DNA of 40,905 nt from Clostridiaceae bacterium (GTDB lineage: Bacteria; Bacillota; Clostridia; DSM-8532), in assembly GCA_012728015.1 (NCBI GenBank), contig JAAYFY010000059.1:1-40905 (forward strand), read 5' to 3'. Position 1 is the stretch's first letter. Each line of letters begins with the position of its first letter. Positions 8,081 through 37,856 of this stretch are shown piece by piece. The notes beneath the pieces are model-generated. The model was not told the origin of the DNA. It worked only from the letters and a program-made list of their open reading frames with translations, and made no database searches. The position numbers and the translations under genes are program-made.

Positions 8081-8089
8081 TCAAACCAG

Positions 8090-9956: not shown

Positions 9957-10060
9957 GCCCGGGTCCGCATTTTGTCCGCACCGGCTTTTTCCCGCCCCTG
10001 CAGCGGATTCCCCTTGCCTGGTATCGGGGCTTCTGCGGGTTTTGTATTATTGCCGGTATA

Positions 10061-10089
10061 TGGACTGGCTGTGCTGTTTTGGATATAAT
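10061..10089 (+). promoter_or_regulatory. Promoter of the hydrolase-GH43 operon
   Basis: TATAAT (10084-10089) is preceded, with a 17-base spacer, by TGGACT (10061-10066), which matches 4 of 6 bases of the -35 consensus. Confidence 0.5.
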
Positions 10090-10158
10090 GCAGGATGAAT
10101 GGAAAACATCTTATGATGCCATAACATGCCGACCATGTGTTGAAAGGAGAAGAATGCC

Positions 10159-10941: not shown

Positions 10942-10977
10942 GGACAGGCGTAATAAAGCGGTGGGAAGGAAAAGCTG

Positions 10978-22656: not shown

Positions 22657-23190
22657 ATGAAAAAACAATCCGTAAAACTGCTTACCCTTTCAGGCCTGTT
22701 CCTGGCCCTTGGACTTCTGCTGCCCTTCCTGACGGGCCAGATCCCGAATATCGGAAAGATGATGCTTCCCATGCACATCCCGGTCCTGCTGGCCGGGTTC
22801 GTATGCGGATGGCCTTACGGGCTGGTGGTAGGCCTTATCTGCCCCCTGCTAAGGAGCGTGACTTTTGGCGCGCCGTCCATGACAAATGCCGTGCCCATGG
22901 CTTTTGAACTGGCGGCATACGGCTTTGCGACCGGGCTTTTGTACAAGCTGTTCCCGAAAAAGAATATATTCATATATACGGCACTGATTATCTCCATGTT
23001 ATTCGGCAGGATTGTCTGGGCTGCCGCCAGTTATGGCTTTAACCAAATCATAGGATCGTCTTTTACCTGGGAAATGTTTGTCGCGGGCGCGTTCGTTAAC
23101 GCTATTCCCGGGATCATCCTCCAGATCGTGCTGATTCCTGTCCTGGTCATGGCATTGAAAAAAGCCGGGTATATAGGGGACGCAAGATAA
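22657..23190 (+). CDS. ECF transporter S component (substrate-specific subunit)
   Basis: A 177-residue, six-helix membrane protein of the ECF vitamin/micronutrient transporter S-component type. It binds the substrate and docks on a shared energising module (EcfA, EcfA', EcfT), which is not encoded in this window. Features are the short basic N terminus, the hydrophobic helix LLTLSGLFLALGLLLPFL, an amphipathic MLPMHIPVLLAGFVCGWPYG loop as in many S subunits, and FELAAYGFATGLLYKL. GGGAGG lies 9 bases before ATG 22657. The stop overlaps by one base with the next gene, a P-loop kinase-like protein, which suggests the imported compound is phosphorylated for trapping. Substrate unknown. Confidence 0.8.
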   Translation: MKKQSVKLLTLSGLFLALGLLLPFLTGQIPNIGKMMLPMHIPVLLAGFVCGWPYGLVVGLICPLLRSVTFGAPSMTNAVPMAFELAAYGFATGLLYKLFPKKNIFIYTALIISMLFGRIVWAAASYGFNQIIGSSFTWEMFVAGAFVNAIPGIILQIVLIPVLVMALKKAGYIGDAR

Positions 23191-24260
23191 TGGACTTAAG
23201 AAGCATACTTATTATGCATGCCGCCCTGTATCCGAAAATGCAGGTACAGGACATGTACAAGCTGGTCTACCAAAACGAATTTGGAGGAGGACACCTGGTA
23301 AGCGACGAACAGGAAAGCCTCCGGCGCCTGCTGGCCGAGCATGAGTATATAAGACAGGCCGGAAGAAAGATTCCGGAAGGATACCAATTTATCGACATAG
23401 GCAACGGCCTGTGCAGGCTGGATTTATCTGTCCTTGAGCATACCGCCATCAGCCCGTCCACGGTAAACCGGTTTTTCGTCAATACCTCCAAGGAAGTGAA
23501 AGGATTCATTCCGGGCTTCGAGAAAAAACTGGATGTCCTCCGGCATTGCTGCTCGACCGGCGAGGTTGGGTTTCCGCCCGCGGACCTGGAAGCGTTCCTG
23601 GACACTTATAGGATCAAGGGCTATCCCATGGTCAGCCACAGCGAGATCTACAGGGCTGAATACTTCCCTGCCTATCGCGTCGTTAAGGCCGAATACCGCA
23701 AATACCTCAAGGTGTTCGTTGAAACGGACAACCTTATGCGGACCAGGGAGCGGGTACTGGTTGCCATAGACGGGAACAGCGGTGCGGGAAAAAGCTTTCT
23801 GGCGGATCTGATTGCCGGTGTATACGACTGCAACCTGTTTCATATGGATGATTTCTTCCTGCGGCCCGGGCAAAGGACTGAAGAACGGCTGAACAAAGCA
23901 GGTGAGTTTGTGGATCATGAAAGGTTCAGCCAGGAGGTAATCCAGGGATTGAAAAGCGGGCGGCCGTTCAGTTACAGGAAATTTGACTGCGGCACGATGG
24001 ACCTTGGAGAAACGGTATATGTCCAGCACAAAAAGCTTAATGTTATTGAAGGCTCCTACAGCATGCATCCGTCCCTGGCAGAAAACTACGACCTTAAAAT
24101 CTTTCTCCACATAGACCCCAGGGGGCAGGAGCGGAGGATACGGGAAAGAAACGGTGAAGGGATGCTGCAAAGGTTCCTCGGCGAGTGGATACCAAGGGAG
24201 AACAGGTACTTTGAGGAAATGGACATCCGGGAAAAGTGCCACCTTGTATTTGGTGTATGA
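23190..24260 (+). CDS. Uridine-kinase-like protein with unknown N-terminal domain
   Basis: A 356-residue two-part protein. Residues 1-185 form a domain I do not recognise (MYKLVYQNEFGGGHLVSDEQ near the start; GFPPADLEAFLDTYRIKGYP later). Residues about 188-356 are a P-loop kinase of the uridine kinase / phosphoribulokinase / nicotinamide-riboside-kinase group: VLVAIDGNSGAGKS with Walker A at 195-202, FHMDDFFLRP as the substrate-side Asp motif, a GSYSMHP segment and DPRGQERRIRERNG as the lid. Translation is coupled to the S component by a one-base overlap (TAATG). Together they suggest uptake and phosphorylation of a nucleoside-like compound or vitamin. The function of the fused N-terminal domain is open. 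Confidence 0.75.
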   Translation: MDLRSILIMHAALYPKMQVQDMYKLVYQNEFGGGHLVSDEQESLRRLLAEHEYIRQAGRKIPEGYQFIDIGNGLCRLDLSVLEHTAISPSTVNRFFVNTSKEVKGFIPGFEKKLDVLRHCCSTGEVGFPPADLEAFLDTYRIKGYPMVSHSEIYRAEYFPAYRVVKAEYRKYLKVFVETDNLMRTRERVLVAIDGNSGAGKSFLADLIAGVYDCNLFHMDDFFLRPGQRTEERLNKAGEFVDHERFSQEVIQGLKSGRPFSYRKFDCGTMDLGETVYVQHKKLNVIEGSYSMHPSLAENYDLKIFLHIDPRGQERRIRERNGEGMLQRFLGEWIPRENRYFEEMDIREKCHLVFGV

Positions 24261-24331: not shown

Positions 24332-24356
24332 TCAGCCAGGTCTGGCGCCTGGCTGA
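24332..24356. repeat. Hairpin downstream of the kinase gene
   Basis: TCAGCCAGG and CCTGGCTGA form a 9-bp perfect stem with a 7-base loop. There is no U tract. It lies 40 bases upstream of the terminator-like repeat at 24396. The rest of the 24261-24657 gap holds the terminator and the promoter/operator region listed below; no gene is seen. Confidence 0.5.
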
Positions 24357-24395
24357 TAGAAGTGCTCTTTACGGATTGTCAACTTAATAGTATGG

Positions 24396-24437
24396 AAAAA
24401 GCCATGGCAGGTCTTTATGATCTGCCATGGCTTTTTT
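24396..24437 (+). terminator. Strong terminator hairpin, copy 1 of a repeated element
   Basis: AAAAAGCCATGGCAG (24396-24410) and its exact complement (24422-24436) form a 15-bp stem with an 11-base loop; the T tract is part of the second arm. Because the arms are A-rich on the left, it can terminate in both directions. A closely related hairpin lies at 35396-35435. Confidence 0.8.
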
Positions 24438-24512
24438 CAGCGCTTCTCAAACCTTTGCAGAAATCATACAGGGGTAGGATTCATGTATTTTGTGGACAAT
24501 GTATAATTATTA

Positions 24513-24540
24513 TTCGAACTTACAAATTCACATTTCGAAC
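24513..24540. promoter_or_regulatory. Tandem TTCGAAC sites upstream of the ABC-island promoter
   Basis: TTCGAAC occurs at 24513-24519 and 24534-24540, exactly 21 bases apart, that is two helical turns on one DNA face. The second ends 18 bases before the -35 element. Each contains the palindrome TTCGAA. They are candidate regulator-binding sites. Confidence 0.45.
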
Positions 24541-24558
24541 AAAATATAAATTTTGCAG

Positions 24559-24588
24559 TTGACAAAATGAACTATAAAGTTCTAAAAT
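24559..24588 (+). promoter_or_regulatory. Promoter of the sugar/ABC island with operator-like spacer
   Basis: TTGACA (24559-24564), 18 bases, TAAAAT (24583-24588). The spacer contains the perfect inverted repeat GAACT-ATAA-AGTTC (24569-24582), placed so that a bound repressor would block RNA polymerase. Confidence 0.65.
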
Positions 24589-24657
24589 AGAATATAAAGA
24601 TTCAGCAAAATTACTCAACAGACAACTCGTCAAATACTCAAAATAAGGGGGATTCAA

Positions 24658-25596
24658 ATGAGGTTAGGGTTTTATGCGAACTATACGGAAAGGACGGCAG
24701 AATTTGCACACAGGGTAGGCTTCGGAAGCATGGAACTGTCTGCATGGCCGGCATCTACACTCAATGCGGATACCATAACGGACAAACAGATTACGGCCAT
24801 ACTCAAGGACCTGGAATCAAAAGACATTGAGATTTCAGCCTTGGGTTATTATCCGAATTACCTGTCACCGGACAGGAAGGCTGCTGAAGAAGCGAGGCGC
24901 TACTTTATCAAGGTGCTCGATCTTGCAAAACGTATGGGCGTTTCGACGGTTGCAACATTTGCAGGCCGCGATCCGGATAAAACAGTGGAAGACAATCTGC
25001 CTGAATTCAGGGAAGTCTTTACAAGATTCTGCGATGAAGCCGCAAAGCGCAATGTCAGAATCGCCATCGAGAACTGCCCGATGATGGATCACAGGACTCT
25101 TAAGGGCGAGAATATCGCTTATTCGCCTGAAATATGGAAAGCCATGTTTGAAGCAGTTCCGGCTGATAACTTAGGTCTGGAGCTTGATCCGGCCCATATG
25201 GTATGGCAGGGTATCGACTATATTAAGGCAATATACGATTTTGGACATAAGATATTCCATACCCATGCAAAGGATATGGAAATCAGGAGGGACGTCCTCG
25301 CAAGATGCGGTATTTACGGTATCTTGTTTGACAAGGTTGATGACTTCGGTCATGGCTGGTGGCGCGGACGTGCTCCAGGCTGGGGTGAGGTAAACTGGCA
25401 TCGCTTCATTACTGCCCTTCTTGATGTCGGGTATACCGGCAACATCGATATTGAACACGAAGATCCCGTTTTCGCCAAAGCAGCCAATCTCGGTGTTGAG
25501 ATTAATGAAGAAAGCGATATTATCAACAATTACAGCACAGAGGAAAGCGGCCTGATCCTGGGTTACAACACATTATCCGTTCTTATTCCCAAATAA
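24658..25596 (+). CDS. Sugar phosphate isomerase/epimerase (xylose-isomerase-like TIM barrel)
   Basis: A 312-residue AP-endonuclease-2/xylose-isomerase-like barrel. Metal ligands are arranged as in the family: Glu 138 (AIENCP), Glu 175 / Asp 177 / His 180 (LELDPAHM), His 201 and 203 (FHTHAKD), and Glu 266 (IDIEHEDP). Such enzymes isomerise or epimerise keto-sugars, inosose or related compounds, usually not phosphorylated despite the family name. A WWRGRAPGWGEVNW segment near residue 240 is typical of the inosose/keto-sugar subset. GGGGGA lies before ATG 24658. It is the first gene of the island. A stem-loop separates it from the binding-protein gene. Confidence 0.87.
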   Translation: MRLGFYANYTERTAEFAHRVGFGSMELSAWPASTLNADTITDKQITAILKDLESKDIEISALGYYPNYLSPDRKAAEEARRYFIKVLDLAKRMGVSTVATFAGRDPDKTVEDNLPEFREVFTRFCDEAAKRNVRIAIENCPMMDHRTLKGENIAYSPEIWKAMFEAVPADNLGLELDPAHMVWQGIDYIKAIYDFGHKIFHTHAKDMEIRRDVLARCGIYGILFDKVDDFGHGWWRGRAPGWGEVNWHRFITALLDVGYTGNIDIEHEDPVFAKAANLGVEINEESDIINNYSTEESGLILGYNTLSVLIPK

Positions 25597-25625
25597 ATGT
25601 TCTTTAAGCCTTTACCTACCATTTG

Positions 25626-25676
25626 CCCTCTCCTGCTGCCGGATCACAACACCGCATCCGGAATAGCAGGAGAGGG
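25626..25676. promoter_or_regulatory. Long stem-loop before the binding-protein gene
   Basis: CCCTCTCCTGCT (25626-25637) pairs with AGCAGGAGAGGG (25665-25676). An inner stem CCGGAT/ATCCGG (25639-25644 with 25656-25661) extends it. There is no U tract. It is likely an mRNA processing or stability element rather than a terminator. Confidence 0.65.
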
Positions 25677-25765
25677 ACACCTCACAACCAGTAAGCCGGT
25701 GTATTTATAACAGGTCTTTGCAGGATGGTATCATTATTCATTTAAACAGAATAGGAGGTCAAACA

Positions 25766-27577
25766 ATGAAAAAGAGGATCTATTGCGTAATCTCAATGAT
25801 TCTGCTGGCCGCAATGCTGTTCGGCGCCTGCGGCGGCAGCAGCCAGCCGGGTTCTACTGCGTCTGCTTCACCGGGGACATCTGGATCTTCGCAAACAGGC
25901 AGCACAGGCGGGGACCAGATTAAGGATGTACCCAGAGAAAAAACAGTAGTTTTTGAAAACATCGAGGGTCGTGTCCCACTGCCGGACAACCAGAACCAGT
26001 ACACCGACAACCAGTACCTGGACTGGGGTATGTGGCAGGCAAACCAGGAGTCTCTCTTCTATTACAACTACGAAACCGGCGAGATCATGCCCTGGCAGGC
26101 AAAGGGCTATGAATTCAACGATGATTTTACAAAGGTTAAGATCTTCATTCGTGAAGGCGTCAAATGGCAGGATGGCGAACCATTTACGGCCGACGACGTG
26201 GTATTTACCATCAATATGATAAAGAGCCATCCTGAACTGCGTTATTCAACCGACATGAATACTTATGTCCAGGATGTTGTGGCAAATAACGATCATGAGG
26301 TTGAGTTCACATTGACACAGAGCTACCCCTCATTCGTAATGGACTACTTCTCGGTAAAGGTATGGGATACATTGCTGATTGCGCCTGAGCACATATGGAA
26401 AGATGTGGATCCGGTAACTTTCAGCAACTATGACCTTGCAAAGGGGTATCCTGTCGGGACCGGTCCTTACAAGCTGGTTCGTTCCACAGAAACCGAACAG
26501 GTTTACGACCGGTGTGATACATGGTGGGGCGCCGAAACAGGCTTTATGGATATGCCGAAACCGGAGCGTGCCATTTGGCTGACGGTTGGTTCCGAAGAAC
26601 TGCGTGCAGCCAAGTTGGTCAGCAATGAAATTGACGCGGCCTGGACACTCGGACGCAGCAACTATGAAACTGCAAAGGCAAAGAACAATAACATCGTTTC
26701 ATGGTATGAAGATCTGCCTTATGCTTACCTTGATCCAGGCGCCAGGGGCCTGTACTTTAACTGTGATGTGTTCCCATTCAATGATCCTGACGTAAGACAT
26801 GCAATAAACCATGCAATTAACCGGGATGAAATCGTTGCCATTGCTTACGAAGGAATGACAGAACCGTCCTATACCATGTATCCGACATATCCGCCTTTGA
26901 AAGCATTCCTGGACAGGAATGAGGACCTGTTTGAAAAGTATGACATCAAGTCATATGATGTCCAGAAGTGCAAGGATATCATGACGTCAAAGGGATTTAC
27001 CCTGGATTCCGAGGGACTCTGGAGAGATTCCGGCGGCAACCGGATTACCTTTACCATCATAGCCAGATCAGGAGAATCAGACAAGGTAAAGGTCGGCCCG
27101 ATCCTGGTGCAACAATTGCGTCAGGCAGGCTTTGACGTAGACTTCCAGGCTCTTGAGAGTGCAATGTACTACAATGAAACCCAGTCCGGTTCGGCAGTAG
27201 TATGGCTGTCTGACCAACTGTCCAGTGTGTCTGATCCATACAGTATGCTTGATGCTTTCCACAGTAAATGGTATAAACCCGTCGGTGAGTTATCATCAAA
27301 GCCGAGCCGTTACAGAAACAGCGAATTTGATGCGTTAGTGGAACAAATGTCCGTCCTGGCACCGTCCGATCCCAGGTTCATGGAGCTTGCCGACCAGGCA
27401 TTTGAGATCTGGCTGCGCGATCTGCCGTGTATCGGACTTGTTCAGGCATATCTGCTTACGCCATTCAATTCCACTTACTGGACCAATTGGCCCGATGCAA
27501 ATAACAACTACATACATCCGGGGCACTGGTGGGTAACCGGTAATATCCTGCTCCATAATATTGAACCAGCCAAATAA
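25766..27577 (+). CDS. ABC transporter substrate-binding lipoprotein, family 5 (Dpp/Opp type)
   Basis: A 603-residue extracellular solute-binding protein of the SBP_bac_5 family. The signal peptide MKKRIYCVISMILLAAMLFG ends in a lipobox, with the lipidated Cys at residue 22, followed by a Gly/Ser/Thr-rich linker. Family motifs are KIFIREGVKWQDGEPFTADDVVFT, GTGPYKLV and VRHAINHAINRDEIV. The mature protein binds a peptide or, in many anaerobes, an oligosaccharide or other glycoside. Its neighbours (isomerases, Gfo/Idh/MocA oxidoreductase, ROK regulator) favour a sugar-type ligand. AGGAGG lies upstream of ATG 25766; the frame's earlier ATG at 25718 lacks one and would precede the signal peptide. 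Stem-loops without U tracts lie on both sides. Confidence 0.9.
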   Translation: MKKRIYCVISMILLAAMLFGACGGSSQPGSTASASPGTSGSSQTGSTGGDQIKDVPREKTVVFENIEGRVPLPDNQNQYTDNQYLDWGMWQANQESLFYYNYETGEIMPWQAKGYEFNDDFTKVKIFIREGVKWQDGEPFTADDVVFTINMIKSHPELRYSTDMNTYVQDVVANNDHEVEFTLTQSYPSFVMDYFSVKVWDTLLIAPEHIWKDVDPVTFSNYDLAKGYPVGTGPYKLVRSTETEQVYDRCDTWWGAETGFMDMPKPERAIWLTVGSEELRAAKLVSNEIDAAWTLGRSNYETAKAKNNNIVSWYEDLPYAYLDPGARGLYFNCDVFPFNDPDVRHAINHAINRDEIVAIAYEGMTEPSYTMYPTYPPLKAFLDRNEDLFEKYDIKSYDVQKCKDIMTSKGFTLDSEGLWRDSGGNRITFTIIARSGESDKVKVGPILVQQLRQAGFDVDFQALESAMYYNETQSGSAVVWLSDQLSSVSDPYSMLDAFHSKWYKPVGELSSKPSRYRNSEFDALVEQMSVLAPSDPRFMELADQAFEIWLRDLPCIGLVQAYLLTPFNSTYWTNWPDANNNYIHPGHWWVTGNILLHNIEPAK

Positions 27578-27591
27578 ACCGTTAGCCCGCC

Positions 27592-27633
27592 TTCTGCGCG
27601 GAAGCCATGTATGAAAACGGCTTCCGCGCAGAA
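27592..27633. promoter_or_regulatory. 15-bp perfect stem-loop after the binding-protein gene
   Basis: TTCTGCGCGGAAGCC (27592-27606) and its exact complement (27619-27633) enclose a 12-base loop; AATCCATATT follows. It has no U tract. Such structures commonly protect the 3' end of binding-protein mRNA, raising its level over the permease genes. Confidence 0.7.
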
Positions 27634-27674
27634 AATCCATATTCGCAGCAATTGAGGAAGGAACGGAATCTCAA

Positions 27675-28673
27675 ATGAGTATTAAGTACTTATCAAAACG
27701 GATTCTCGTATTTATAGTGACCATAATCCTGGCTGTTACAATAAATTTTTTCATTCCACGACTAACCCCACAGAATCCTGTGGCTGCTTTGGTCGGCAAA
27801 ATGGTGAGCAAAGGCATTACAGTTGTAGACAGCGATGCAATCGTCCAGAAGTACACAGAGCAGTTCGGCATGAATGATCCGTTGCCCGTGCAATACTTCA
27901 AGTACCTGAAAAATGTTATTTTACACGGGGATCTGGGCTATTCCATTTCCTACTTTCCGGGAAAAGTAACTGACGTTATTATTAGAGCAATCCCGTATAC
28001 GGTAATCATTATGATCATTGCAAACGTGATTGCCTTCGTAGTGGGAAACCTGCTGGGAGCGCTGTGTGTGTGGAAGAAAAGCCCTAAGCTTGTTAAGGGT
28101 GTAGTATATTTCATGATGCCATTCTCCACAATTCCATATTACATATTGGCCTTGATTCTCCTTTACCTGTTTGCAATACTTCTGCCGATTTTCCCGATCG
28201 GGGGCGTTTCAACAGCCGGCAGCGCCGGAGGTTTTTCGTTCAAGGCAATCTGGGATACCGTATCACACGCGGTGCTTCCCATACTTTCCGTAGTATTGTC
28301 TCTTATAGGTTTTTGGGCATTGAGCATGCGTGGAATCATGGCAACCGTCTTGGGTGAGGATTATCTTATGTACGCGCAGGCCCGCGGCCTTAAGCCAGGC
28401 AGGATCTTCTTCAGTTATGCTGTTCGGAATTCCCTGCTCCCCCAGATTACCGCTTTTGGAATTGATATTGGAAAGATCATATCCGGTTCGATATTGGTTG
28501 AGATTGTATTCAATTACCCTGGAGTCGGAATGGTTCTTTATAACGCGTTGCGTACGGCAGATTATTTTGTTATCCAGGGTGTTGTTATGTTTATAGTTGT
28601 TTCGGTCGCCCTTACAATGCTGATTGTGGATCTTATACTTCCCAAACTGGATCCCACCATTAAGTATGAGTAG
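27675..28673 (+). CDS. ABC transporter permease, DppB/OppB type
   Basis: A 332-residue inner-membrane permease of the dipeptide/oligopeptide class. The N-terminal helix (KRILVFIVTIILAVTINFFI) is followed by the external region with FGMNDPLPVQYFKYL and GDLGYSISYFPGKV. The EAA-type loop that contacts the ATPase is YLMYAQARGLKPGRIFF. The C-terminal helices include EIVFNYPGVGMVLYNAL. About six membrane helices are expected. A GAGGAAGGA stretch lies upstream of ATG 27675, at a rather long spacing. It forms the translocation pore with the next gene product. Confidence 0.92.
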   Translation: MSIKYLSKRILVFIVTIILAVTINFFIPRLTPQNPVAALVGKMVSKGITVVDSDAIVQKYTEQFGMNDPLPVQYFKYLKNVILHGDLGYSISYFPGKVTDVIIRAIPYTVIIMIIANVIAFVVGNLLGALCVWKKSPKLVKGVVYFMMPFSTIPYYILALILLYLFAILLPIFPIGGVSTAGSAGGFSFKAIWDTVSHAVLPILSVVLSLIGFWALSMRGIMATVLGEDYLMYAQARGLKPGRIFFSYAVRNSLLPQITAFGIDIGKIISGSILVEIVFNYPGVGMVLYNALRTADYFVIQGVVMFIVVSVALTMLIVDLILPKLDPTIKYE

Positions 28674-28688
28674 AGGAGGAGTTGCATT

Positions 28689-29540
28689 TTGAGCGCATTA
28701 TCTCAGATACGTAAGATAAATAAACGCATGCCTACTCTCCTGCCTGGAATTATTCTGCTGCTGATTCTGGTCATTCCGCCGACATTGGGCAGACCGTTTT
28801 TAGACCTTGAACTGACCCAGATTTCGTCCTCCAGGATAAATATCCCTCCTGGCGCTGAATATCCTCTCGGGACCCAGAGCGAAGGACGTGATATGCTGAC
28901 CATACTGATCCTGGGTACGGGCGCAACGCTCAAGATCGGCCTTATTGCCGGCGCCATCGGACTTGCTGTGGGGGCCATTCTGGGCATGATTTCCGGTTAT
29001 TTCGGAGGATTCATTGATAAGACCATCAGTGCAATTGTTGACTCATTTATTACCATACCGCCCCTTGCAATCCTGATATTGATTGCCGCAGCTACAAAAA
29101 CAATGTCTATAGAAGGTATGGGAATCATAGTGGCATTGACCGCATGGATGCAGCCGACGCGTATTATCCGTTCACAAATGCTTTCGATGAAAGAGCGCAA
29201 TTATATTCGTCTGGCAAAATTATCCGATATGGGCAGTATCAAGATAATTTTCACGGAGATACTGCCGAATCTGATACCGTTTTTGGCAGCTGCGTTTGTC
29301 AATGGTGTGTCTACCGCAATCCTCTCATCCATAGGCTTGGAGGTATTGGGTTTGGGATCTCAGCAGACGCTCTCCCTGGGGATGACCATCTATTATGCCA
29401 ATTATTACTCCGCTATGTGGCGCGGCATCTGGTGGTGGTGGCTTCCCCCGGTAATAGTGATAGTGCTGATATTTATTGCACTGTTTTTGATCAGCCTTTC
29501 ACTTGATGAAATCGGAAATCCGAAATTCAACCGTCTATAA
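28689..29540 (+). CDS. ABC transporter permease, DppC/OppC type
   Basis: A 283-residue second permease of the importer. After a short cytoplasmic N terminus and one helix (LLPGIILLLILVIPPTLG) comes the class-typical PLGTQSEGRDMLTILILGTG. The helical core follows, then the ATPase-contact loop MKERNYIRLAKLSDMGSIKIIF. The C terminus is LFLISLSLDEIGNPKFNRL, close to the usual DGLRDxxDPR ending. The start is TTG 28689, supported by AGGAGGAG 7 bases upstream; the first in-frame ATG is 12 codons later and has no such site. It begins 15 bases after the DppB-type gene. Confidence 0.9.
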   Translation: MSALSQIRKINKRMPTLLPGIILLLILVIPPTLGRPFLDLELTQISSSRINIPPGAEYPLGTQSEGRDMLTILILGTGATLKIGLIAGAIGLAVGAILGMISGYFGGFIDKTISAIVDSFITIPPLAILILIAAATKTMSIEGMGIIVALTAWMQPTRIIRSQMLSMKERNYIRLAKLSDMGSIKIIFTEILPNLIPFLAAAFVNGVSTAILSSIGLEVLGLGSQQTLSLGMTIYYANYYSAMWRGIWWWWLPPVIVIVLIFIALFLISLSLDEIGNPKFNRL

Positions 29541-29562
29541 ATGAAACATATGGAGGCTTAAG

Positions 29563-30468
29563 ATGGATTCGATTTTAAGCGTTAGAAATATATCAGTAAA
29601 ATATCAGACCTCAAGAGGCTGGTTCCCTGCCGTGTCAGGTGTGAACTTCTCTGTGAAAAAGGACGAGGTTTTCGGTATTGTCGGAGAATCAGGCTCGGGC
29701 AAGTCCACGTTATGCATGGGTCTGCTTAAGCTTCTTCCAACATCTGCGCAGGTGGAGGTTGACAGTATCCTGTTTGATGACAGGGAGCTAAGCGGAATAA
29801 AGGAAGAGGAGCTCAGGCGAGTTCGCTGGGAGGGAATATCCTATATCCCGCAAAGCGCGATGAATACTTTGAACCCGGTAAAACGCATCAGGGCGCATTT
29901 TTATGAGACCATTACCGACCATGAAGGGAAGAAGAGCAAAGCAGAGCTGGAAAGACGTACATATGAAGCGTTGAAGCGCGTTCATCTGGAAACGAGCGTG
30001 GCAGACCAGTATGCCCATGAGCTTTCTGGTGGAATGAAACAGCGTGTATGCATCGCAATGAGTACCTTGCTTAACCCGAAGCTTATTATTGCCGATGAGC
30101 CGACAAGTGCTCTTGATGTTATATCACAGCGAACAGTCCTTGAAATCCTGTCAAAGGTACGAAAGAGTACCAGCGCTTCAATGATACTTATTGGCCATGA
30201 TATGGCTTTGCAGGCGCAGATAGCAGATCGCATGGGTGTCATGTTTGCCGGGTATTTTGTGGAGATCGGTGAAGTTAAAGATATCTTCAGAAACCCCATA
30301 CATCCCTATACCCAGCGATTAATACGCTCCATACCATCGATCAGGCAAAAAGAGAACATACATGATTTGGCCAGTGACGAGTTAAGTCCCGAGGAGCTTG
30401 AACGCTTTAAAACGCCCAGGCCTCTCATAGAGGCCGAGAAAGGTCATTTCGTCGCTGAGTTCAAATAA
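29563..30468 (+). CDS. ABC transporter ATPase, DppD/OppD type
   Basis: A 301-residue ATPase that powers the importer. Walker A GESGSGKS is at 41-48, the signature LSGGMKQR at 154-161, and Walker B LIIADEPTSALD around 174-185, with the switch His in LIGHDM. NPIHPYTQRLIRSIPS marks the oligopeptide ATPase C-terminal extension. That extension is shorter than usual and lacks the cysteine cluster present in the partner ATPase; it ends with KGHFVAEFK. A GGAGG sequence precedes ATG 29563. It is expected to pair with the product of 30486-31454. Confidence 0.92.
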   Translation: MDSILSVRNISVKYQTSRGWFPAVSGVNFSVKKDEVFGIVGESGSGKSTLCMGLLKLLPTSAQVEVDSILFDDRELSGIKEEELRRVRWEGISYIPQSAMNTLNPVKRIRAHFYETITDHEGKKSKAELERRTYEALKRVHLETSVADQYAHELSGGMKQRVCIAMSTLLNPKLIIADEPTSALDVISQRTVLEILSKVRKSTSASMILIGHDMALQAQIADRMGVMFAGYFVEIGEVKDIFRNPIHPYTQRLIRSIPSIRQKENIHDLASDELSPEELERFKTPRPLIEAEKGHFVAEFK

Positions 30469-30485
30469 TTGTGGGAGGAACGGAC

Positions 30486-31454
30486 ATGTCGGAGTACTTG
30501 CTGGAGGTTAAGAATCTTACCAGGATCTTTACTAGTAAAAGAAAAAAGACGGTAGCACTGAAGGATGTCTCATTAGCAATGGAGAGAGATAATCCCAAAA
30601 CATTGGCCGTAGTTGGTGAAAGCGGCAGTGGAAAGAGTACGCTTGCAAATCATATCTTGGGGTTCCTGAAACCTACTTCCGGACAGGTCCTTTTTGAGGG
30701 AAAGGACATTAATCGTCAGAACAGGCAGCAGCACAAGCAATATCGTCAAAAGGTGCAGGCTATCTTCCAGAATCCGTTTGATACTTTTAACCCCTTTTAC
30801 AAAGTGGATCATGTTTTTCACATGCTAGTCAGCCATTTTCATGTGGCGCCATCCAGGAAAAAAGCACTTCCGCTTATCGAACAGGCATTGGAAATGGTCA
30901 GGCTGAACCCTGGCGATGTTTTGGGAAAGTACTCCCACCAGCTTTCAGGAGGGCAGCAGCAGCGCATCATGATTGCCAGATGCCTTCTTCTGAAACCAAA
31001 GCTGCTGATTGCGGATGAACCTGTTTCAATGATTGATGCATCATTGAGGGTGACTGTCCTGGACGTTATGGAAAAGATTAAAACCCAAAACAGGATATCG
31101 CAGCTTTACATAACCCATGACCTTTCTACCGCATTGCAGATCAGCGATGACATCATTGTCATGTACAAGGGACATATTGTGGAGAAAGGGCCGGCGATAG
31201 AAGTTATACAGTCTCCGGCACATCCATATACGCAATTGCTAATTCAGTGTATTCCACTGCCATCACCGGAAGAACGTTGGGAATCCCCAATTGACATACA
31301 GGACACGAGACGGATAGAAAGCGAGGAAGCATGCTGCTTTTGTGATCGATGTCCCAAAGCGGCAGACATCTGCTTCCGCCGCCAGCCTGGTTATACACAG
31401 GTAAGCGATGAACACAGCGTTGCATGTTATCTTTATGGCGATAAAACAGAATAA
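30486..31454 (+). CDS. ABC transporter ATPase, DppF/OppF type
   Basis: A 322-residue ATPase, partner of the DppD-type subunit. Walker A GESGSGKS is at 44-51, the signature LSGGQQQR and Walker B LLIADEPVSMID follow, and the switch His is in ITHDLS. The C-terminal extension carries CCFCDRCPKAADIC and a further Cys, the cysteine pattern of Opp/Dpp ATPases in which an iron-sulfur cluster has been reported. The frame opens at GTG 30471, but GGGAGGA 6 bases before ATG 30486 fixes the start. The position Ala-to-Val in EPVS is common in this subgroup. It ends 20 bases before the second isomerase gene. Confidence 0.92.
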   Translation: MSEYLLEVKNLTRIFTSKRKKTVALKDVSLAMERDNPKTLAVVGESGSGKSTLANHILGFLKPTSGQVLFEGKDINRQNRQQHKQYRQKVQAIFQNPFDTFNPFYKVDHVFHMLVSHFHVAPSRKKALPLIEQALEMVRLNPGDVLGKYSHQLSGGQQQRIMIARCLLLKPKLLIADEPVSMIDASLRVTVLDVMEKIKTQNRISQLYITHDLSTALQISDDIIVMYKGHIVEKGPAIEVIQSPAHPYTQLLIQCIPLPSPEERWESPIDIQDTRRIESEEACCFCDRCPKAADICFRRQPGYTQVSDEHSVACYLYGDKTE

Positions 31455-31474
31455 GGAAAAAGGGAGTTGAGTGT

Positions 31475-32311
31475 ATGAAAGTTTCAATCAGCCAAATAAC
31501 AACGTATCCAAAGGATATGGAAACAGATGCCATGACTTTCAGCCGTGCTGGACTGAAGAATGTGGAACTGACCTTTGATAAGGTCTATGCCTATTTGAAG
31601 CAGCATACCCTGGATGAAATGCGGGAACTCTTTGACAAATCAGGGCTTAGGGCTGTTTCTGCAATAGGGCTTGCGCCCGAAACCGCAGGGCTGCTTCTGG
31701 CTTCCGGGGAAACGTGGAGTAAATATCAAAACAAGCTTGAAGAGCAAATACAGATAAGCTCAAAAATGGGCTGCGGCCTGATAGGTGTCGGTGCGGATCC
31801 AAAGGGTTATGTTTATGACAACTGGGAACGCCAGGCCGTGGATAATCTCAGGAGGGCAGGGGATATAGCCGCAAAATACAACATGAAATTAGGCCTTGAG
31901 TTTATGTATCTGCCTGAGCCTGTAGGGCCCTTTGTCCTGGATCATCTCAGGGAAACCGTGGAGCTTGTATTAAGGGCTGACCATCCGAATATAGGTTATT
32001 TTCTGGACCTGTTCCATATGCATAATGGCGGCGACGGGCTTGAAATCCTGGAAGATATTGACATGAGAAAACTCCTGAACGTCCATTTCTGTGATGCTGC
32101 AAACAAACCCGCTGGTACATTGTTTGACGGTGACAGATTGCTTCCGGGCAAGGGCTGTTTGCCGCTGGATGACATTGTGGTACTGTTGAAAAGGCGGGGA
32201 TACAACGGATACCTGTGTCTTGAATTATTGAATGAAGAACTGTGGAATATGGAAGCGCAACCGGCTGCCGACTTGTGCCGTGCGGCCATGGTCAGGTATG
32301 AAAACATATAA
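31475..32311 (+). CDS. Sugar phosphate isomerase/epimerase, second copy (TIM barrel)
   Basis: A 278-residue xylose-isomerase-like barrel, clearly divergent from the one at 24658. Metal ligands are Glu 142 (GLEFMYLPE), Asp 178 / His 181 (LDLFHMH), His 204 (VHFCD) and Glu 250 (LELLNEELW). The RLLPGKGCLPLDDIV segment before the last strand is typical of inosose-isomerase-like and hydroxypyruvate-isomerase-like enzymes. AGGGAG precedes ATG 31475. It sits between the transporter ATPase and the Gfo/Idh/MocA dehydrogenase. Pairing of such an isomerase with that dehydrogenase recurs in inositol and 3-keto-sugar pathways. The precise reaction is not predictable. Confidence 0.85.
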   Translation: MKVSISQITTYPKDMETDAMTFSRAGLKNVELTFDKVYAYLKQHTLDEMRELFDKSGLRAVSAIGLAPETAGLLLASGETWSKYQNKLEEQIQISSKMGCGLIGVGADPKGYVYDNWERQAVDNLRRAGDIAAKYNMKLGLEFMYLPEPVGPFVLDHLRETVELVLRADHPNIGYFLDLFHMHNGGDGLEILEDIDMRKLLNVHFCDAANKPAGTLFDGDRLLPGKGCLPLDDIVVLLKRRGYNGYLCLELLNEELWNMEAQPAADLCRAAMVRYENI

Positions 32312-32342
32312 CACAAAAATACATGGTGAAAAGGTGATCGGC

Positions 32343-33500
32343 ATGAAAAAGCAAAGAGTTAAAACAGGCATTATTGGAACCGGTTTTATTGGCGCGGCTC
32401 ATATTGAGGCTCTGCGCAGAATTGGAATCTGCGACGTAATAGCTGTGGCAGACATCAACCTGGACCTGGCGAAAAAGATCGCCCGGCGATGGGACATACC
32501 CCTGACCTATGAAAGATATGAGGATTTGATCAAGAATCCGGATATTGATGTTGTACACATCGCTACGCCTAATAACCTGCATTATCCTGTTGCCGAACTG
32601 GCAATCCGCAGTGGAAAGCATGTTGTGTGTGAAAAACCCCTGGTTCTCAATACCAAGGAAGCCAAGGCTCTCCTTGAAATAGCCGGGAACAGCAATTGTG
32701 TGACAGCAGTATCATTCAACTTAAGGTATTATCCGCTGGTGCAGCAAGCCAGGAAGATGGTGCAAGGCAACAGTCTTGGGAGGATATTCTCGTATCACGG
32801 GAGATATCTGCAGGATTGGCTGCTATTTGATACAGATTATTCCTGGCGCGTTGACAGCAGTATCAGCGGACCAACCAGGGCTATATCGGATATTGGCTCC
32901 CATTGGCTGGATATGGCTGAGTATATCCTGGGACAGAGGGTTGCGGCAGTTTGCGCGGATATCAGGACATTCCATCCTGTTCGTAAAAAGCCAAAGGCAA
33001 GCGGCAAGACATTCCAAAAAGCAAGTGAAGATCAGGAATATGAAAATGTGGAAATAGATACTGAAGATTATGCAGCGCTGCTTATCCGGTTTGAAAACGA
33101 TGTACCCGGAACCCTGACTATCAGCCAGGCATCTGCCGGACGCAAGAATTACCTGGAATTCGAAGTCGATGGTGAAAAGAAGGCATTGAGCTGGAACTCT
33201 GAAAATCCCAATGAAATGTGGATAGGAAAACGGGACAGCTTCAACCAGCTGCTGATAAAAGATCCTTCCCTGGTTGATGAAGGGGCAGCGCAATTCATAT
33301 CATTCCCCGGAGGTCATACCGAGGGCTTTCCTGATACGCAAAAACAACTTTTTAAGCAAGTATACGAATACATACAGGAGGAAAACCACATTAAGGGCAT
33401 AGCAGCGCCTTTCCCGACTTTTAAAGACGGCTGCCATATTGTTGCGCTCAGTGAAGCGATTCTGCAAAGCGCCCGCAGCCATGCCTGGGTAGAACTGTAA
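32343..33500 (+). CDS. Gfo/Idh/MocA family NAD(P)-dependent oxidoreductase
   Basis: A 385-residue dehydrogenase. The N-terminal Rossmann fold starts with GIIGTGFIG (residues 9-17), and the conserved CEKPLVLN has Glu 97 / Lys 98 / Pro 99. The catalytic-domain motif SDIGSHWLDMAEYILG carries the DxxxH pair expected for acid/base catalysis. The family oxidises ring hydroxyls of sugars or inositols, typically at C3 or C1, with NAD(P). The frame is open from 32232 inside the previous gene. ATG 32343 with AAAGGTGAT upstream gives the normal N terminus. With the two TIM-barrel enzymes it forms an oxidation/isomerisation set for the imported substrate. Confidence 0.92.
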   Translation: MKKQRVKTGIIGTGFIGAAHIEALRRIGICDVIAVADINLDLAKKIARRWDIPLTYERYEDLIKNPDIDVVHIATPNNLHYPVAELAIRSGKHVVCEKPLVLNTKEAKALLEIAGNSNCVTAVSFNLRYYPLVQQARKMVQGNSLGRIFSYHGRYLQDWLLFDTDYSWRVDSSISGPTRAISDIGSHWLDMAEYILGQRVAAVCADIRTFHPVRKKPKASGKTFQKASEDQEYENVEIDTEDYAALLIRFENDVPGTLTISQASAGRKNYLEFEVDGEKKALSWNSENPNEMWIGKRDSFNQLLIKDPSLVDEGAAQFISFPGGHTEGFPDTQKQLFKQVYEYIQEENHIKGIAAPFPTFKDGCHIVALSEAILQSARSHAWVEL

Positions 33501-33528
33501 CGGGATGCTGGCCCGGTGTATTTAACAT

Positions 33529-33954
33529 ATGATGTACTTAATGATAGGCTTGGTGATAGTATGCAGTTGTGCGTACAGTGCCATCCAGAAATCTGTTCCC
33601 CAAAGGATTGATCCGTTTGTAGCTTTGTCTGTAACATATTTTACAGCGGCATTGTTATGCACAATACTTGCGGCAGTATTTACGGGGAAAGAAGAAATAT
33701 CGCATTCCATCAGGGAGATAAGCTGGTATAATGTTGCTCTTGGCATTGTGCTTGTTGGTATAGAAGTTGGAAATATGCTTGCCTACCGGAATGGAGGACA
33801 GGTTTCCAGCTTATTCCTGGTAAACACAGTAGGCATTATGCTTCTTCTTGTTCCTATATCTATTGTTTTATTTAAAGAAACAATCACCGGGAGGGGGATT
33901 ATCGGCCGTTTGATCTGCCTGGTCGGGTTATTGCTGGTAATGTGGGACAGATGA
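33529..33954 (+). CDS. Half-size EamA/DMT-type membrane protein
   Basis: A 141-residue protein with about five hydrophobic segments, one EamA (drug/metabolite transporter) repeat instead of the usual two. Features are LVIVCSCAYSAIQKSVPQRIDPF, ALGIVLVGIEVGNMLAYRNGG and SIVLFKETITGRGIIG, the last two resembling the pre-helix and glycine-rich parts of EamA repeats. Half-size members are thought to work as dimers, in the manner of SMR proteins. It lies 28 bases after the dehydrogenase gene, with tandem ATG codons (33529, 33532) and no clear ribosome binding site, so expression level and start are uncertain. Export of a pathway by-product or substrate is possible but not shown. Confidence 0.6.
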   Translation: MMYLMIGLVIVCSCAYSAIQKSVPQRIDPFVALSVTYFTAALLCTILAAVFTGKEEISHSIREISWYNVALGIVLVGIEVGNMLAYRNGGQVSSLFLVNTVGIMLLLVPISIVLFKETITGRGIIGRLICLVGLLLVMWDR

Positions 33955-34006
33955 CGAGAATGGCACGTATGTTAAGCTGAGGCATTAAACTTGCAAAATA
34001 ACAATA

Positions 34007-34035
34007 TTTACTGGATGAATTATATTATATATGCT
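34007..34035 (+). promoter_or_regulatory. Promoter of the ROK regulator gene
   Basis: TTTACT (34007-34012), 17 bases, TATGCT (34030-34035). The -10 lies within the inverted repeat described next. Confidence 0.5.
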
Positions 34036-34052
34036 AAATTATATTTTAGCAT
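34031..34052. promoter_or_regulatory. Operator-like inverted repeat upstream of the ROK gene
   Basis: ATGCTAAA (34031-34038) and TTTAGCAT (34045-34052) are exact reverse complements with a 6-base spacer. They overlap the -10 element, which suggests autorepression by the ROK protein or another dimeric repressor. Confidence 0.55.
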
Positions 34053-34090
34053 TCAACGGTTAACTAAATATCAATGAAGGTGTTTATAAT

Positions 34091-35365
34091 ATGGAAAGGT
34101 TGGAGGCATATTCAAACATAGCCGCAGTATCAACAGTTGCCAAGATCTGCAATATTATTGTCCGGTCGGACGAAGGCATTACCAGGGCCGAGCTGGCAAG
34201 ATTCACCGGGTTCAGCAAATCAACCATCACCCAGCATGTGGATACATTGCTGTCTTCGGGGTTTATTACCCAGATATCGCTTCCGGATAAATCCAATGGC
34301 GGCCGAACCTCCCAGTACCTGAAACTCAACAAGGATTGCGGTGTGGTAGTGGCTATAGATTTGGGGATTACCAGCCTTCATGTTGGCATATGCAACATAA
34401 TGGGCGAGCCTTTGGCTGTGAAATGCATTGAAAACATCAATGTAAATGAAGGCCCGGAAGCGATACTTCAAAAAGCTGTGAGTATGGCAAATGATCTGCT
34501 TGAAGAGCTTAATGTTCCGAAGCGCAGGCTTTTGGGAGTAGGAATGGGAGTTCCTGCGCCGCTGGAATTTTCAACCGGACGCCCTGTTTCTCCCCCGGTC
34601 ATGCTTTCCTGGGACGGCTATTCGGTTAAGGAATACCTGGAAAAAGCCTTTGGCGTACGCGCCTATGTGGATAATGATGTTAACATCATGGCCATTGCGG
34701 AGCTTTGGAGGGGAGATGCCCGCGATGACCTGAACTTCCTGTTCATTAAGCTTGGTACTGGTATCGGTTGTGGGATTATCAGCAATGGAAACATATACAG
34801 GGGTTCAAACGGATGTGCCGGCGATATCGGGCACATGAAAGTTGATGGTTTCACACATACCTGTTACTGCGGGAATATAGGCTGCCTGGAGAAACTGGCA
34901 GGGGCTGCCGCAATACAGGAACGGGCATACGAGCTGGCAAGAAATAAGGAATCTCCTTATCTTGAGAAACTTTTAAGCCAGGGCGAGGAAATAACCTGCA
35001 AATCTGTGAATGCCGCTGTTACGAGCGGTGATATATCCTGCATAGAACTCATTCGCACTGTAGGCGGGTACATAGGTGATGTTGTATCAAATCTCGTAAC
35101 ATTCTTTAATCCTTCGAAAATAGTATTTGGCGGCGGTATTTCAAACTTCGGAGATGTAATCATTAATCCGATAAGGAAGAAAATATACGGCAGCTGCGGC
35201 TCACTCGCGACAAAGGATTTACAGATTCAGCGCTCACGATTGGGGGAGAATTGCGGTGTAATTGGCGCAGCTATTCTTGTCAGGGAAGAATTGTTCCATC
35301 CAAAGGAGTTTACCAAAGTCCTCAGTTCGGTTCTTGAGGGGGATACGGCAGCCAACGGCAAGTGA
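34091..35365 (+). CDS. ROK family transcriptional repressor
   Basis: A 424-residue regulator of the NagC/XylR/Mlc type. Residues about 10-75 are a winged helix-turn-helix (GITRAELARFTGFSKSTITQ). Residues about 85-400 are the ROK sugar-kinase-like domain: DLGITSLHVGI, VDNDVNIMAIAELWRG, GTGIGCGIISNG, and the zinc site formed by His 248 (GDIGHM) and the CxCGxxGCxE motif with Cys 258, 260 and 265. Such proteins release DNA on binding a sugar or sugar derivative. Its place at the end of the transport/isomerase island and the operator candidates at 24513-24582 and 34031-34052 make it the probable local regulator. Whether it also has kinase activity is unknown; the HTH argues for a regulator. Confidence 0.92.
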   Translation: MERLEAYSNIAAVSTVAKICNIIVRSDEGITRAELARFTGFSKSTITQHVDTLLSSGFITQISLPDKSNGGRTSQYLKLNKDCGVVVAIDLGITSLHVGICNIMGEPLAVKCIENINVNEGPEAILQKAVSMANDLLEELNVPKRRLLGVGMGVPAPLEFSTGRPVSPPVMLSWDGYSVKEYLEKAFGVRAYVDNDVNIMAIAELWRGDARDDLNFLFIKLGTGIGCGIISNGNIYRGSNGCAGDIGHMKVDGFTHTCYCGNIGCLEKLAGAAAIQERAYELARNKESPYLEKLLSQGEEITCKSVNAAVTSGDISCIELIRTVGGYIGDVVSNLVTFFNPSKIVFGGGISNFGDVIINPIRKKIYGSCGSLATKDLQIQRSRLGENCGVIGAAILVREELFHPKEFTKVLSSVLEGDTAANGK

Positions 35366-35395
35366 GATTTATACAGACCTGGAAAACAACTTCTG

Positions 35396-35435
35396 AAAAA
35401 GCCATGGCAATCATTATGATCTGCCATGGTATTTT
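35396..35435 (+). terminator. Terminator of the ROK gene, copy 2 of the repeated hairpin
   Basis: GCCATGGCA (35401-35409) pairs with TGCCATGG plus a G-U pair (35422-35430), followed by ATTTTGTT. The left arm and loop share AAAAAGCCATGGCA and TTATGATCTGCCATGG with the hairpin at 24396-24437. The ISL3 element starts 4 bases later. Confidence 0.75.
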
Positions 35436-35496
35436 GTTGGCTCTACGTCAAATGTTGGGGTTGAACCAAGTAAAGTGAAGTAGCATATGCATAGTT

Positions 35497-35529
35497 GGCA
35501 GATGATCATCTTTGGTCGTCTGCCTTTTT
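35497..35529 (+). terminator. Plus-strand terminator-like hairpin inside the insertion sequence
   Basis: GGCAGATGATCA (35497-35508) pairs with TGGTCGTCTGCC (35513-35524, two G-U pairs), followed by five T. It would stop transcription that enters from the ROK side. Confidence 0.6.
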
Positions 35530-35668
35530 ATGTATGGATTAAGGTCCTACCATATAGTATCCTTCTCTAAATCTCTCAAATGCACATGGCTCAAGTAGCC
35601 TAAACCTAGCTTACGGTTTTTTCTGTACAACTATTGGCACGGTTAAGTTCAAGTAATAATGTGCGGGT

Positions 35669-36843
35669 TTATGCCATAACATGCAGTATCCTGTTTCTGA
35701 ACCTTTCAAAGTTTCTTATCCCATAAGCATTCCGTTTGATCACTTTAATCTTGTTGTTGACTCCCTCTGTATAACCGTTGGTGTAAGGAACATCGAAGGA
35801 GTTTAGTATCTCTCTTTGCCAGTTTGTAAAGGCCCTGAAACAGTCATGGAATTCAGGGAGATTGTAACCGTAGAATAACATGTACCATCTGGCCAGTTGC
35901 TTTTTAGCCTCAAACTGTTTTTAGAGTCCATCACTTTGTAGAATTCGTTCTTTAATACATAAGCCTGCCTTAAGCGTTCAGAAATCTTTAGCATGGCTTC
36001 CACTTCTTCAGCTTCTATGGCAGTCAGCTTATCAGGGCGTTTTAGCAATAGTTTCCGGCTCCTTTTGAAATATTTCCTGCGTTGCTCATAAAACTTCTTC
36101 TGTTCTGCTTTTCTAACGTTTTCAAATGCCCAGGCTACCTGCCTGACAACATGATATTTATCAGCAATAATCTGTGCCCTTGGGAATACTGTTTTGATCA
36201 GGCTGCGATAAGGACCGCTCATATCAATAACTACATACTTTACACTATGCCGGTCTTTAAACTTTGAAAAGTATCTGTACAAGTCTTCGCCCTTCCTGTT
36301 TGGAAGAATATCCAGAACCTTTTTGTTCTCCGGATCTGTAAGTATACATTGAAATTTCTCTTCCCCCGCGTTGCCTCTGAATTCGTCCATCGATATTACA
36401 TGGGGCAAGGACTTGTTGGAATATTTTATGTGATCAAATATCCTTATCGCTGTAGTTGGCGAAACATTTGCCATATTCGATAGATTCTTAATAGAAGTAA
36501 TCTCCCTGAAGGAGTTAATAATAAAGGCAATCAGACGGCTTGTAATACGCTGGTATCTGGGGAGAAAAAGTGTTTCCTCGTAAAACCTTTTATTGCATAA
36601 AGGACATACATAGCGTCTTTCCCTCAGATGTATTATAGTGTAGTTACCGAATGAAGATATATCCTTAATTCGTTGAATCCTGTAATCATGTATCTTGTCT
36701 GTATCATTGCCACAGCGGGGGCACTTATGGACTTTTCGCTTCATTATCATATGGATGTGCAGAGAATTATCCTTCCTCTCTACAAAAGTTACTGTTGCAT
36801 CTTTAAATCCTATCAGTTCCTGCGTATAATCTTTATAGAGCAT
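35669..36843 (-). pseudogene. ISL3-family transposase, interrupted by a frameshift
   Basis: The gene starts at ATG 36843 (AAAGGAG 8 bases upstream; MLYKDYTQELIGF...). An N-terminal zinc-ribbon-like region has CPRCGND and CPLCNKRF, then a helix-turn-helix-like segment (IKNLSNMANVSPTTAI). The DDE-type core has SMDEFRGNAG and VVIDMSGPYR, with the C-terminal Glu motif YTEGVNNKIKVIKR. The first frame is read to about 35912, where one base appears lost from a T run (seen as 35912-35914 on the plus strand). The other frame then continues AKKQLARWYMLFYG to the stop at 35669. With the base restored the protein would be 391 residues, normal for the family. A sequencing error is the alternative. Confidence 0.9.
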
Positions 36844-36921
36844 GGTTGAATCTCCTTTCGAATGGTTGGTTTGGCAACTCCATTTTACTTGAGATTTCAA
36901 CTCCATGCTCTCTTTATTTGC

Positions 36922-36968
36922 AAAAAATGTTGGAGCACCGAAGTTGTTTTCTTCAGCACCCCAACATT
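36922..36968 (-). terminator. Minus-strand terminator-like hairpin at the right end of the insertion sequence
   Basis: 36951-36968 and 36926-36943 are imperfect complements (14 of 18 pairs) around a 7-base loop, with a T run on the minus strand. It lies between the right inverted repeat and the transposase and would stop incoming transcription. Confidence 0.5.
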
Positions 36969-37007
36969 TATTATAGAACCTTTTTGTTGTAATAAGGCTT
37001 CCGGTCA

Positions 37008-37036
37008 TTTACTGCCGCAATAATTGAATGTATAAT
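37008..37036 (+). promoter_or_regulatory. Promoter of the KDPG aldolase / KDG kinase operon
   Basis: TTTACT (37008-37013), 17 bases, TATAAT (37031-37036). It lies 27 bases from the insertion sequence end, so the promoter survived the insertion but any upstream control site may not have. Confidence 0.7.
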
Positions 37037-37041
37037 AATGG

Positions 37042-37059
37042 TGATATATTAATATATCA
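37042..37059. promoter_or_regulatory. 18-bp perfect palindrome at the transcription start
   Basis: TGATATATTAATATATCA is its own reverse complement. It begins 5 bases after the -10 element and ends just before the ribosome binding site. That is the expected position of a repressor operator, for example for a GntR- or LacI-type sugar-acid regulator, which is not encoded here. Confidence 0.65.
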
Positions 37060-37073
37060 ACGAGGTGAAGGTC

Positions 37074-37721: not shown

Positions 37722-37856
37722 AAGCGGCCTGCTTTTGCCTTTTTACATATATTATCCAGCTGCGCCGGAAGGCAGCCGGTATGGCTTCGGCCTTACAGGG
37801 CAGGCAGCAGAACAACCTGTGAGGCTGAGAAGGTATCAGGAAAAGGAGAATCCGCC

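Follow-up and report, generated by a model that had tools for sequence, protein, structure and literature searches.

The closest described counterparts of the genes considered here are the levoglucosan pathway LgdA–LgdB1–LgdB2–LgdC of Bacillus smithii S-2701M (PMC7676230) and the O-glycoside system GlycDH–AtOGE–AtHYD–Gfo of Agrobacterium (PMC10628242), and a route of oxidation, elimination, hydration and reduction is set out in both reports. The former describes LgdC as a glucose 3-dehydrogenase observed to work in both directions and to oxidise glucose as well, and LgdB2 as partly bifunctional (PMC7676230); a third report assigns E95 and H185 of LgdC from LG01 as catalytic and suggests a dual role for LgdA (PMC10066097). 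Here we analyse a 40,905-nt stretch of DNA from a Clostridiaceae bacterium (the window; positions 1 to 40,905 of contig JAAYFY010000059.1, assembly GCA_012728015.1), in which an operon-like run of ten intact genes, all on the plus strand and separated by short gaps (24658–35365), encodes two TIM-barrel proteins (TIM1 and TIM2), a Gfo/Idh/MocA oxidoreductase (GFO), a family-5 ABC importer and a ROK-family protein. As a tentative reading, we propose that the island carrying this run is an operon for the catabolism of an O-glycoside or of an oligosaccharide that contains glucose, via a 3-keto intermediate; that 3-keto-sugar chemistry of some kind is involved seems probable.

With the levoglucosan pathway the locus shares an oxidoreductase on the LgdC side, a barrel of the clade comprising LgdB2, AtHYD and TIM1, import by an ABC transporter, and the presence of two TIM barrels (278 and 312 aa here vs. 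~275 and ~325 aa for the LgdB1/LgdB2 clusters in PMC10066097). Unlike that pathway, it lacks LgdA and LgdB1, TIM2 being IolI-like, and its importer is of family 5, the binding protein being of the oligosaccharide type. The Agrobacterium system likewise has a Gfo-type reductase, its AtHYD type belongs to the sister clade of TIM1, and cleavage of O-glycosides is the use proposed here; by contrast, the run has one dehydrogenase only, and AtOGE (8BVK) is absent from the sequence, profile and structure match lists of TIM1 and TIM2, a result compatible with kinship nonetheless.

The ycj cluster of Escherichia coli resembles the island in its 3-keto-glucoside chemistry and, by annotation, in combining a TIM barrel with Gfo enzymes (YcjR being a 3-dehydro-D-guloside 4-epimerase), but GFO is far from YcjS and the run has no phosphorylase. 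Inositol operons (iolI/iolE/iolG/iolD) share the IolI-like branch with TIM2, while the scores for IolG, IolE and IolD fall short (see below). The 3-keto-disaccharide pathway of Bacteroides (BT2156–2160 type) is likewise said to comprise Gfo dehydrogenases and TIM-barrel proteins. It is echoed by a TIM1 relative encoded on plasmids of rhizobia from bean nodules (Rhizobium, 59% identity; 10001–11623 of both L105 and L106), which adjoins a PF06439 3-keto-disaccharide hydrolase and an amino-acid-type ABC importer; these proteins, from another phylum, are the closest relatives of TIM1 outside its genus. In contrast to the Bacteroides type, the run is devoid of PF06439, and GFO scores 52.8 bits with the BT_2158 family (cut-off 750) and 43.6 bits with that of BT_2159 (cut-off 650).

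Results

The oxidoreductase and its TIM-barrel partner

The closest solved structure to GFO (32343–33500, plus strand; start corrected to the best ATG at 32343) is that of a levoglucosan dehydrogenase (6a3f, 182 bits), and its score against the curated model for that enzyme is 216.3 bits, with a cut-off of 650 (NF052479). For phylogenetic placement, five lgd operons were taken from annotated plasmids (Metabacillus, Deinococcus, Arthrobacter, Klebsiella and Agrobacterium) and a tree of 114 rows was built. The GFOs of L010 and L016 were excluded from it along with loci L001–L009, either because they duplicated the window or a longer stretch or because they were too distant; all 80 rows derived from genome contigs were retained. 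The five levoglucosan dehydrogenases form a clade of their own (support 99) with GFO outside it; a branch with support 97 separates the two, and GFO falls alongside the second oxidoreductases that these operons encode. Cut-off and tree together rule out GFO as a levoglucosan dehydrogenase.

The nearest lgd-operon relative of GFO is the second oxidoreductase of Metabacillus (44.6% identity, 389 bits). A relative from the phylum of the window (45%, 394 bits; L148, genome G668) belongs to a full lgd operon, where it adjoins LgdB2 (748 bits to Metabacillus LgdB2), followed by LgdB1 and levoglucosan dehydrogenase. Given this side of the tree and these operon relatives, we propose GFO to be LgdC-like, i.e. 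of the glucose 3-dehydrogenase type dependent on nicotinamide adenine dinucleotide (NAD). Its glutamate in the EKP motif and histidine in the DIGSH motif (E97 and H187 counted from ATG 32343; E99 and H189 as numbered in the alignment) have the 90-residue spacing reported for LgdA and LgdC. The Metabacillus plasmid region itself (L097, 8371–20386) exceeds the published operon, with five TIM barrels and two extra dehydrogenases.

TIM1 (PF01261, 312 aa; 24658–25596, plus strand) groups with LgdB2 and AtHYD-type rows in one clade of a 57-row tree of TIM barrels (99/99), as a sister type inside neither, with LgdB1 and IolE placed elsewhere. The lgd operon of Klebsiella has an AtHYD ortholog (575 bits) as the barrel next to its second oxidoreductase. 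Taken with this clade, it follows that an LgdC-side oxidoreductase can have any of three sister groups of TIM barrels in the equivalent neighbouring position. Among solved structures of known function, the predicted TIM1 model (predicted local distance difference test score, pLDDT, 89.1) is nearest to the 2-hydroxy-3-keto-glucal hydratase AtHYD (8ro4; Z 30.6, root-mean-square deviation (rmsd) 2.2 over 275 residues, the row after it having Z 28.0), which a TIM1 profile also matches at E 8.9e-10. E138, D177, H201 and E266 are invariant in the 23-row TIM1 alignment; by analogy with IolI, we take them to be metal ligands. On these grounds TIM1 is put forward as a candidate 2-hydroxy-3-keto-glucal hydratase. 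The idea, raised in a preliminary description of this DNA, that cleavage might proceed by oxidation and elimination rather than hydrolysis is thus supported in kind by the GFO tree, the TIM1 clade and the 8ro4 match.

The second barrel

TIM2 (PF01261, 278 aa; 31475–32311, plus strand) has IolI as its nearest solved relative (1i60, 89 bits). It clusters with IolI-like rows (100/100) in the 57-row tree, apart from six LgdB1 rows (98/99), which rules out its being LgdB1. The TIM2 model (pLDDT 73.2) was built on two sequences and its structural ranks are weak; its best match is again 1i60 (Z 26.6). IolI and YcjR both shift a proton beside a ketone on a six-membered ring, and TIM2 is proposed to be a 3-keto-sugar isomerase/epimerase or an eliminase.

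The sole close relative of TIM2 that was found (47% identity) is encoded on an Oscillospiraceae contig (L017). In the order, 2 of 33 genomes gave matches, and in the class 6 of 391, its own genome included, and only distant IolI matches were present on plasmids (2 of 72,556 records). Owing to this rarity, a neighbourhood survey based on TIM2 alone is uninformative.

An importer of the sugar-binding branch

Between the two barrels lie the components that define a family-5 ABC importer, all on the plus strand: an SBP_bac_5 binding protein (25766–27577; start corrected to ATG 25766), two BPD_transp_1 permeases of the OppB/DppB (27675–28673) and OppC/DppC type (28689–29540; TTG start preceded by GGAGGAG), and two ATPases with oligo_HPY tails of the OppD/DppD (29563–30468) and OppF/DppF type (30486–31454). 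Compared with solved structures, the binding protein scores highest against the mannoside-binding 4pfu (167 bits) and 4pft (150 bits), followed by a group including the chitin-oligosaccharide-binding 1zty (107 bits) and by 2o7i (104 bits), as opposed to 49.7 bits for the peptide binder DppA (1dpp). Three sugar binders and four peptide or nickel binders served as references in a 10-row tree, in which the binding protein clustered with 4pfu, 4pft and 7ebm (100/99), apart from OppA, DppA, GsiB and NikA of E. coli; 4pft, 7ebm and 2o7i are presumed here to bind sugars. The family-5 binding protein of a Streptomyces locus (L107) fell on the peptide side.

The binding protein shares a C-terminal WTNW motif with 4pfu, 4pft and its relative in L017, and all four E. 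coli proteins lack it. Position outside the OppA/DppA/GsiB group in the 10-row tree led us to reject peptide import, in agreement with the preliminary description, and most likely the importer carries sugars. A domain search of the genes of the run detected no glycosidase or peptidase, as had been stated before.

Conserved pairing of GFO with TIM barrels

We inspected the best 80 of 581 confirmed loci, which represent near relatives of GFO. Of these, 43 had a TIM barrel of one of the types tested for no more than 3 kb from GFO, and in 30 the distance was at most 300 bases; no such barrel was found more than 5 kb from GFO in 548 kb of the same contigs. The nearest barrel in the paired loci best matched TIM1 in 26 cases, the Bacteroidota AtHYD type in 16 and TIM2 in one. 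Further loci from a search of the phylum contained a TIM barrel in eight of nine cases (L144–L151, but not L152). That dehydrogenase and barrel are conserved together, an expectation of the preliminary description, is therefore borne out in both sets.

Pairs of GFO with a TIM1-type barrel were found in Chloroflexota, Verrucomicrobiota, Planctomycetota, Actinomycetota, Atribacterota and Bacillota. None of the examined stretches of the 26 TIM1-type loci held a second oxidoreductase scoring near the level of levoglucosan dehydrogenases, for which reason other glycosides, too, are probably processed in this way. In the family of the window genome, 7 of 32 genomes matched GFO at E 1e-30, a near-identical copy being confined to one of them (G031). 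Sixteen Bacteroidota loci (cluster c6; L028, L041, L055 and others), often combining a barrel of the AtHYD type with a pair of Gfo oxidoreductases and an MFS transporter, apparently represent a further 3-keto-sugar operon. The Streptomyces locus mentioned above (plasmid of Streptomyces sp. NBC_00564; L107, 3382–12837) encodes a ROK protein, a GFO (38.5% identity) with a TIM1 relative (36%), a second GFO/TIM pair and a family-5 importer.

A proposed route, and what speaks against it

In the route that we propose, the family-5 importer would take up the intact compound and GFO would oxidise its sugar at C3 in an NAD-dependent manner. The 3-keto sugar would then shed its C1 substituent by beta-elimination, yielding 2-hydroxy-3-keto-glucal, which TIM1 would hydrate to 3-keto-glucose; reduction of the latter to glucose, again by GFO, would recycle NAD, so that the net result would equal hydrolysis. 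TIM2 would act at the ketone stage, either as the eliminase or by a proton shift beside the ketone (isomerase/epimerase) that would let a non-gluco sugar enter. With TIM2 in the second role, TIM1 would both eliminate and hydrate, as LgdB2 does in part. The ROK protein would sense the sugar.

A more specific and doubtful version is a minimal redox route of three enzymes, in which a reversible, LgdC-type GFO would carry out both redox steps, TIM1 would eliminate and hydrate, and TIM2 would epimerise (e.g. manno to gluco), thereby admitting oligosaccharides from the mannoside-type importer.

Several observations weigh against the proposed route. The second oxidoreductases of lgd operons are scattered over several subclades of the 114-row tree, from which LgdC of B. 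smithii is absent. The top structural match of TIM1 is 2zds (Z 32.2, rmsd 2.0 over 276 residues), a protein without known function, and the 2.5-Mb genome behind L017, the locus closest to the window in gene order, yielded no TIM1-type gene (0 matches at E 1e-10, and 0 at 1e-5 by profile); either a hydratase of this type is thus not obligatory, or that genome is incomplete. As TIM2 is IolI-like rather than LgdB1-like, the run has no recognised eliminase. It also has no first dehydrogenase of the LgdA type, and the only further GFO match in the window's own genome is distant (33% over 147 aa). Lastly, 37 of the 80 GFO loci had no TIM barrel within 3 kb, and a contig end less than 3 kb away was present in 10 of these, but not in the other 27.

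Alternative explanations

The genes might instead epimerise a sugar without cleaving it, in the manner of ycj: GFO would oxidise C3, TIM2 would epimerise and GFO would re-reduce, with TIM1 as another isomerase and glycosidases encoded elsewhere in the genome acting afterwards. We regard this as unlikely. TIM2 does sit in the wider IolI/YcjR branch (96/91), and YcjR is among the matches of its weak model (6wn6; Z 23.0, rmsd 3.4 over 245 residues), but the fork placing YcjR in that branch is itself weak (90/49) and the YcjR row is long. Moreover, GFO scores 62.6 bits against YcjS, as opposed to 389 bits for the Metabacillus lgd-operon oxidoreductase, and TIM1 clusters with hydratases, for which epimerisation has no need.

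The missing LgdA-type enzyme would be accounted for if a 3-keto sugar or glycoside already oxidised by other microbes were imported and GFO served solely as a reductase. Reduction alone would, however, need NADH from outside the route, and the imported compound is without direct evidence, making this quite improbable.

Catabolism of inositol or another cyclitol, which the preliminary description had considered, would cast GFO as an inositol dehydrogenase, TIM1 as an IolE-like dehydratase and TIM2 as IolI. Apart from 1i60, it can draw on TIM2 relatives in the class (29–31% identity), which include IolI-like genes of inositol operons, the IolD, IolE and IolG of one of these (L153) exceeding their cut-offs. 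The island's own proteins do not follow suit: GFO reaches 112.2 bits against 355 for IolG and TIM1 43.7 against 290 for IolE, IolE rows of the 57-row tree cluster with LgdB1 rather than TIM1, and the best IolD score in the window's genome (99.87% complete) is 243.4 bits, with none above the cut-off of 715. Together with the oligosaccharide-type binding protein, this renders the cyclitol explanation very improbable.

That the locus is a plain levoglucosan operon with unusual parts is barely credible: 6a3f is the closest solved relative of GFO, and ROK regulators are reported near lgdA (PMC10066097), but GFO lies below the cut-off and outside the dehydrogenase clade, TIM2 is not LgdB1, and the lgd operons examined have sugar-type ATPases and substrate-binding proteins instead of a family-5 importer. 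C-glycoside cleavage of the DgpA/DgpB/DgpC type, also suggested earlier, was rejected, with GFO at 76.6 bits against DgpA (7xr9) compared with 182 against 6a3f, and with no gene in the open reading frame list of the run for the small partner of an eliminase that has two subunits according to PMC10628242.

Layout of the run and mobility of the island

Open reading frame calls and the domain search confirmed the genes named in the preliminary description, from which one had been omitted: that for a half-size EamA-like membrane protein of 141 aa (33529–33954, plus strand; PF00892 at 27.2 bits, cut-off 28.2), located between GFO and the ROK gene. The latter (34091–35365, plus strand) encodes an N-terminal helix-turn-helix and is presumed to specify a sugar-responsive repressor; ROK genes likewise adjoin the relatives in L017, L018 and L107. 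The top promoter-like site of the region (TTGACA-18-TAAAAT; 24559–24588, plus strand), 70 bases 5′ of TIM1, is a weak pointer only, with 37 such sites counted vs. 25.5 (standard deviation 5.8) in shuffled sequence. The order of binding protein, permeases, ATPases, TIM2, GFO and ROK is kept in L017. This largely shared order and the near-identity of the run in a second species (see below) indicate that the arrangement is more than chance.

Three related genomes (G028, G029 and G030) have an empty site, in which the bases equivalent to window positions 24436 and 37006 are only 8 to 22 apart. Both forms occur in G031, a second species of the genus, with one contig empty (C76) and one filled (C12), and the flanks of the filled contig match the empty one at 99.5% and 97%. 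Over the island (24332–37059), C12 and the window differ at 18 positions (99.86% identity), whereas compared stretches of core DNA from the two genomes are 94%, 91% and 83% identical. Because of the empty sites and this disparity, the simplest reading is that the island was recently transferred between species and is polymorphic in that of G031. G031 is a draft with 3% contamination, and a mixed bin is possible. Comparison of the junction 24436/37006 across L122, L114, L119, L120 and L010 showed the empty site of the relatives to be clean and the filled site of G031 to have its own flanks.

Two copies of one 42-base inverted-repeat terminator flank the island, and the empty site has one. The left copy (GCCATGGCA...TGCCATGGC; 24395–24436) ends on the final base held in common with the relatives' empty site, and the second (35396–35437) marks the right edge of the island proper. 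An ISL3-family insertion sequence (35439–36980, minus strand) is inserted at the right copy, with 23-base terminal inverted repeats (35439–35461 and 36958–36980) and a likely 8-base target duplication (ATTTTGTT/TTTTTGTT); its transposase reading frame covers just 166 of 240 DDE-domain positions and may be broken. Outside the island, KDPG/KHG aldolase and PfkB kinase genes (37065–38957) adjoin the insertion site and are native there in relatives, which also keep a gene for a 356-aa protein without a Pfam match (23190–24260) beside it. A REP-like palindromic repeat (8079–8129) has many dispersed copies in G031, the source of most of its 59 matches.

Discussion

The preliminary description had raised the prospect of an undescribed pathway. 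Its chemistry is in print (PMC7676230, PMC10628242), and the island does not amount to a new category of system. What sets it apart is that it has a single dehydrogenase, a partner barrel of the IolI type and an importer of family 5, and no description of this reduced enzyme set with such an importer was found in the open-licence literature searched.

Judged by family names alone, the run would suggest a peptide transporter and two sugar isomerases. The evidence points instead to the breakdown of glycosides with no glycosidase involved, which escapes surveys that count glycoside hydrolases. The genes of the island are few and open to testing, and the empty site provides a clear control; if the three-enzyme route were true, the island would constitute a mobile module for opening glycosides, balanced in itself and passed between related species.

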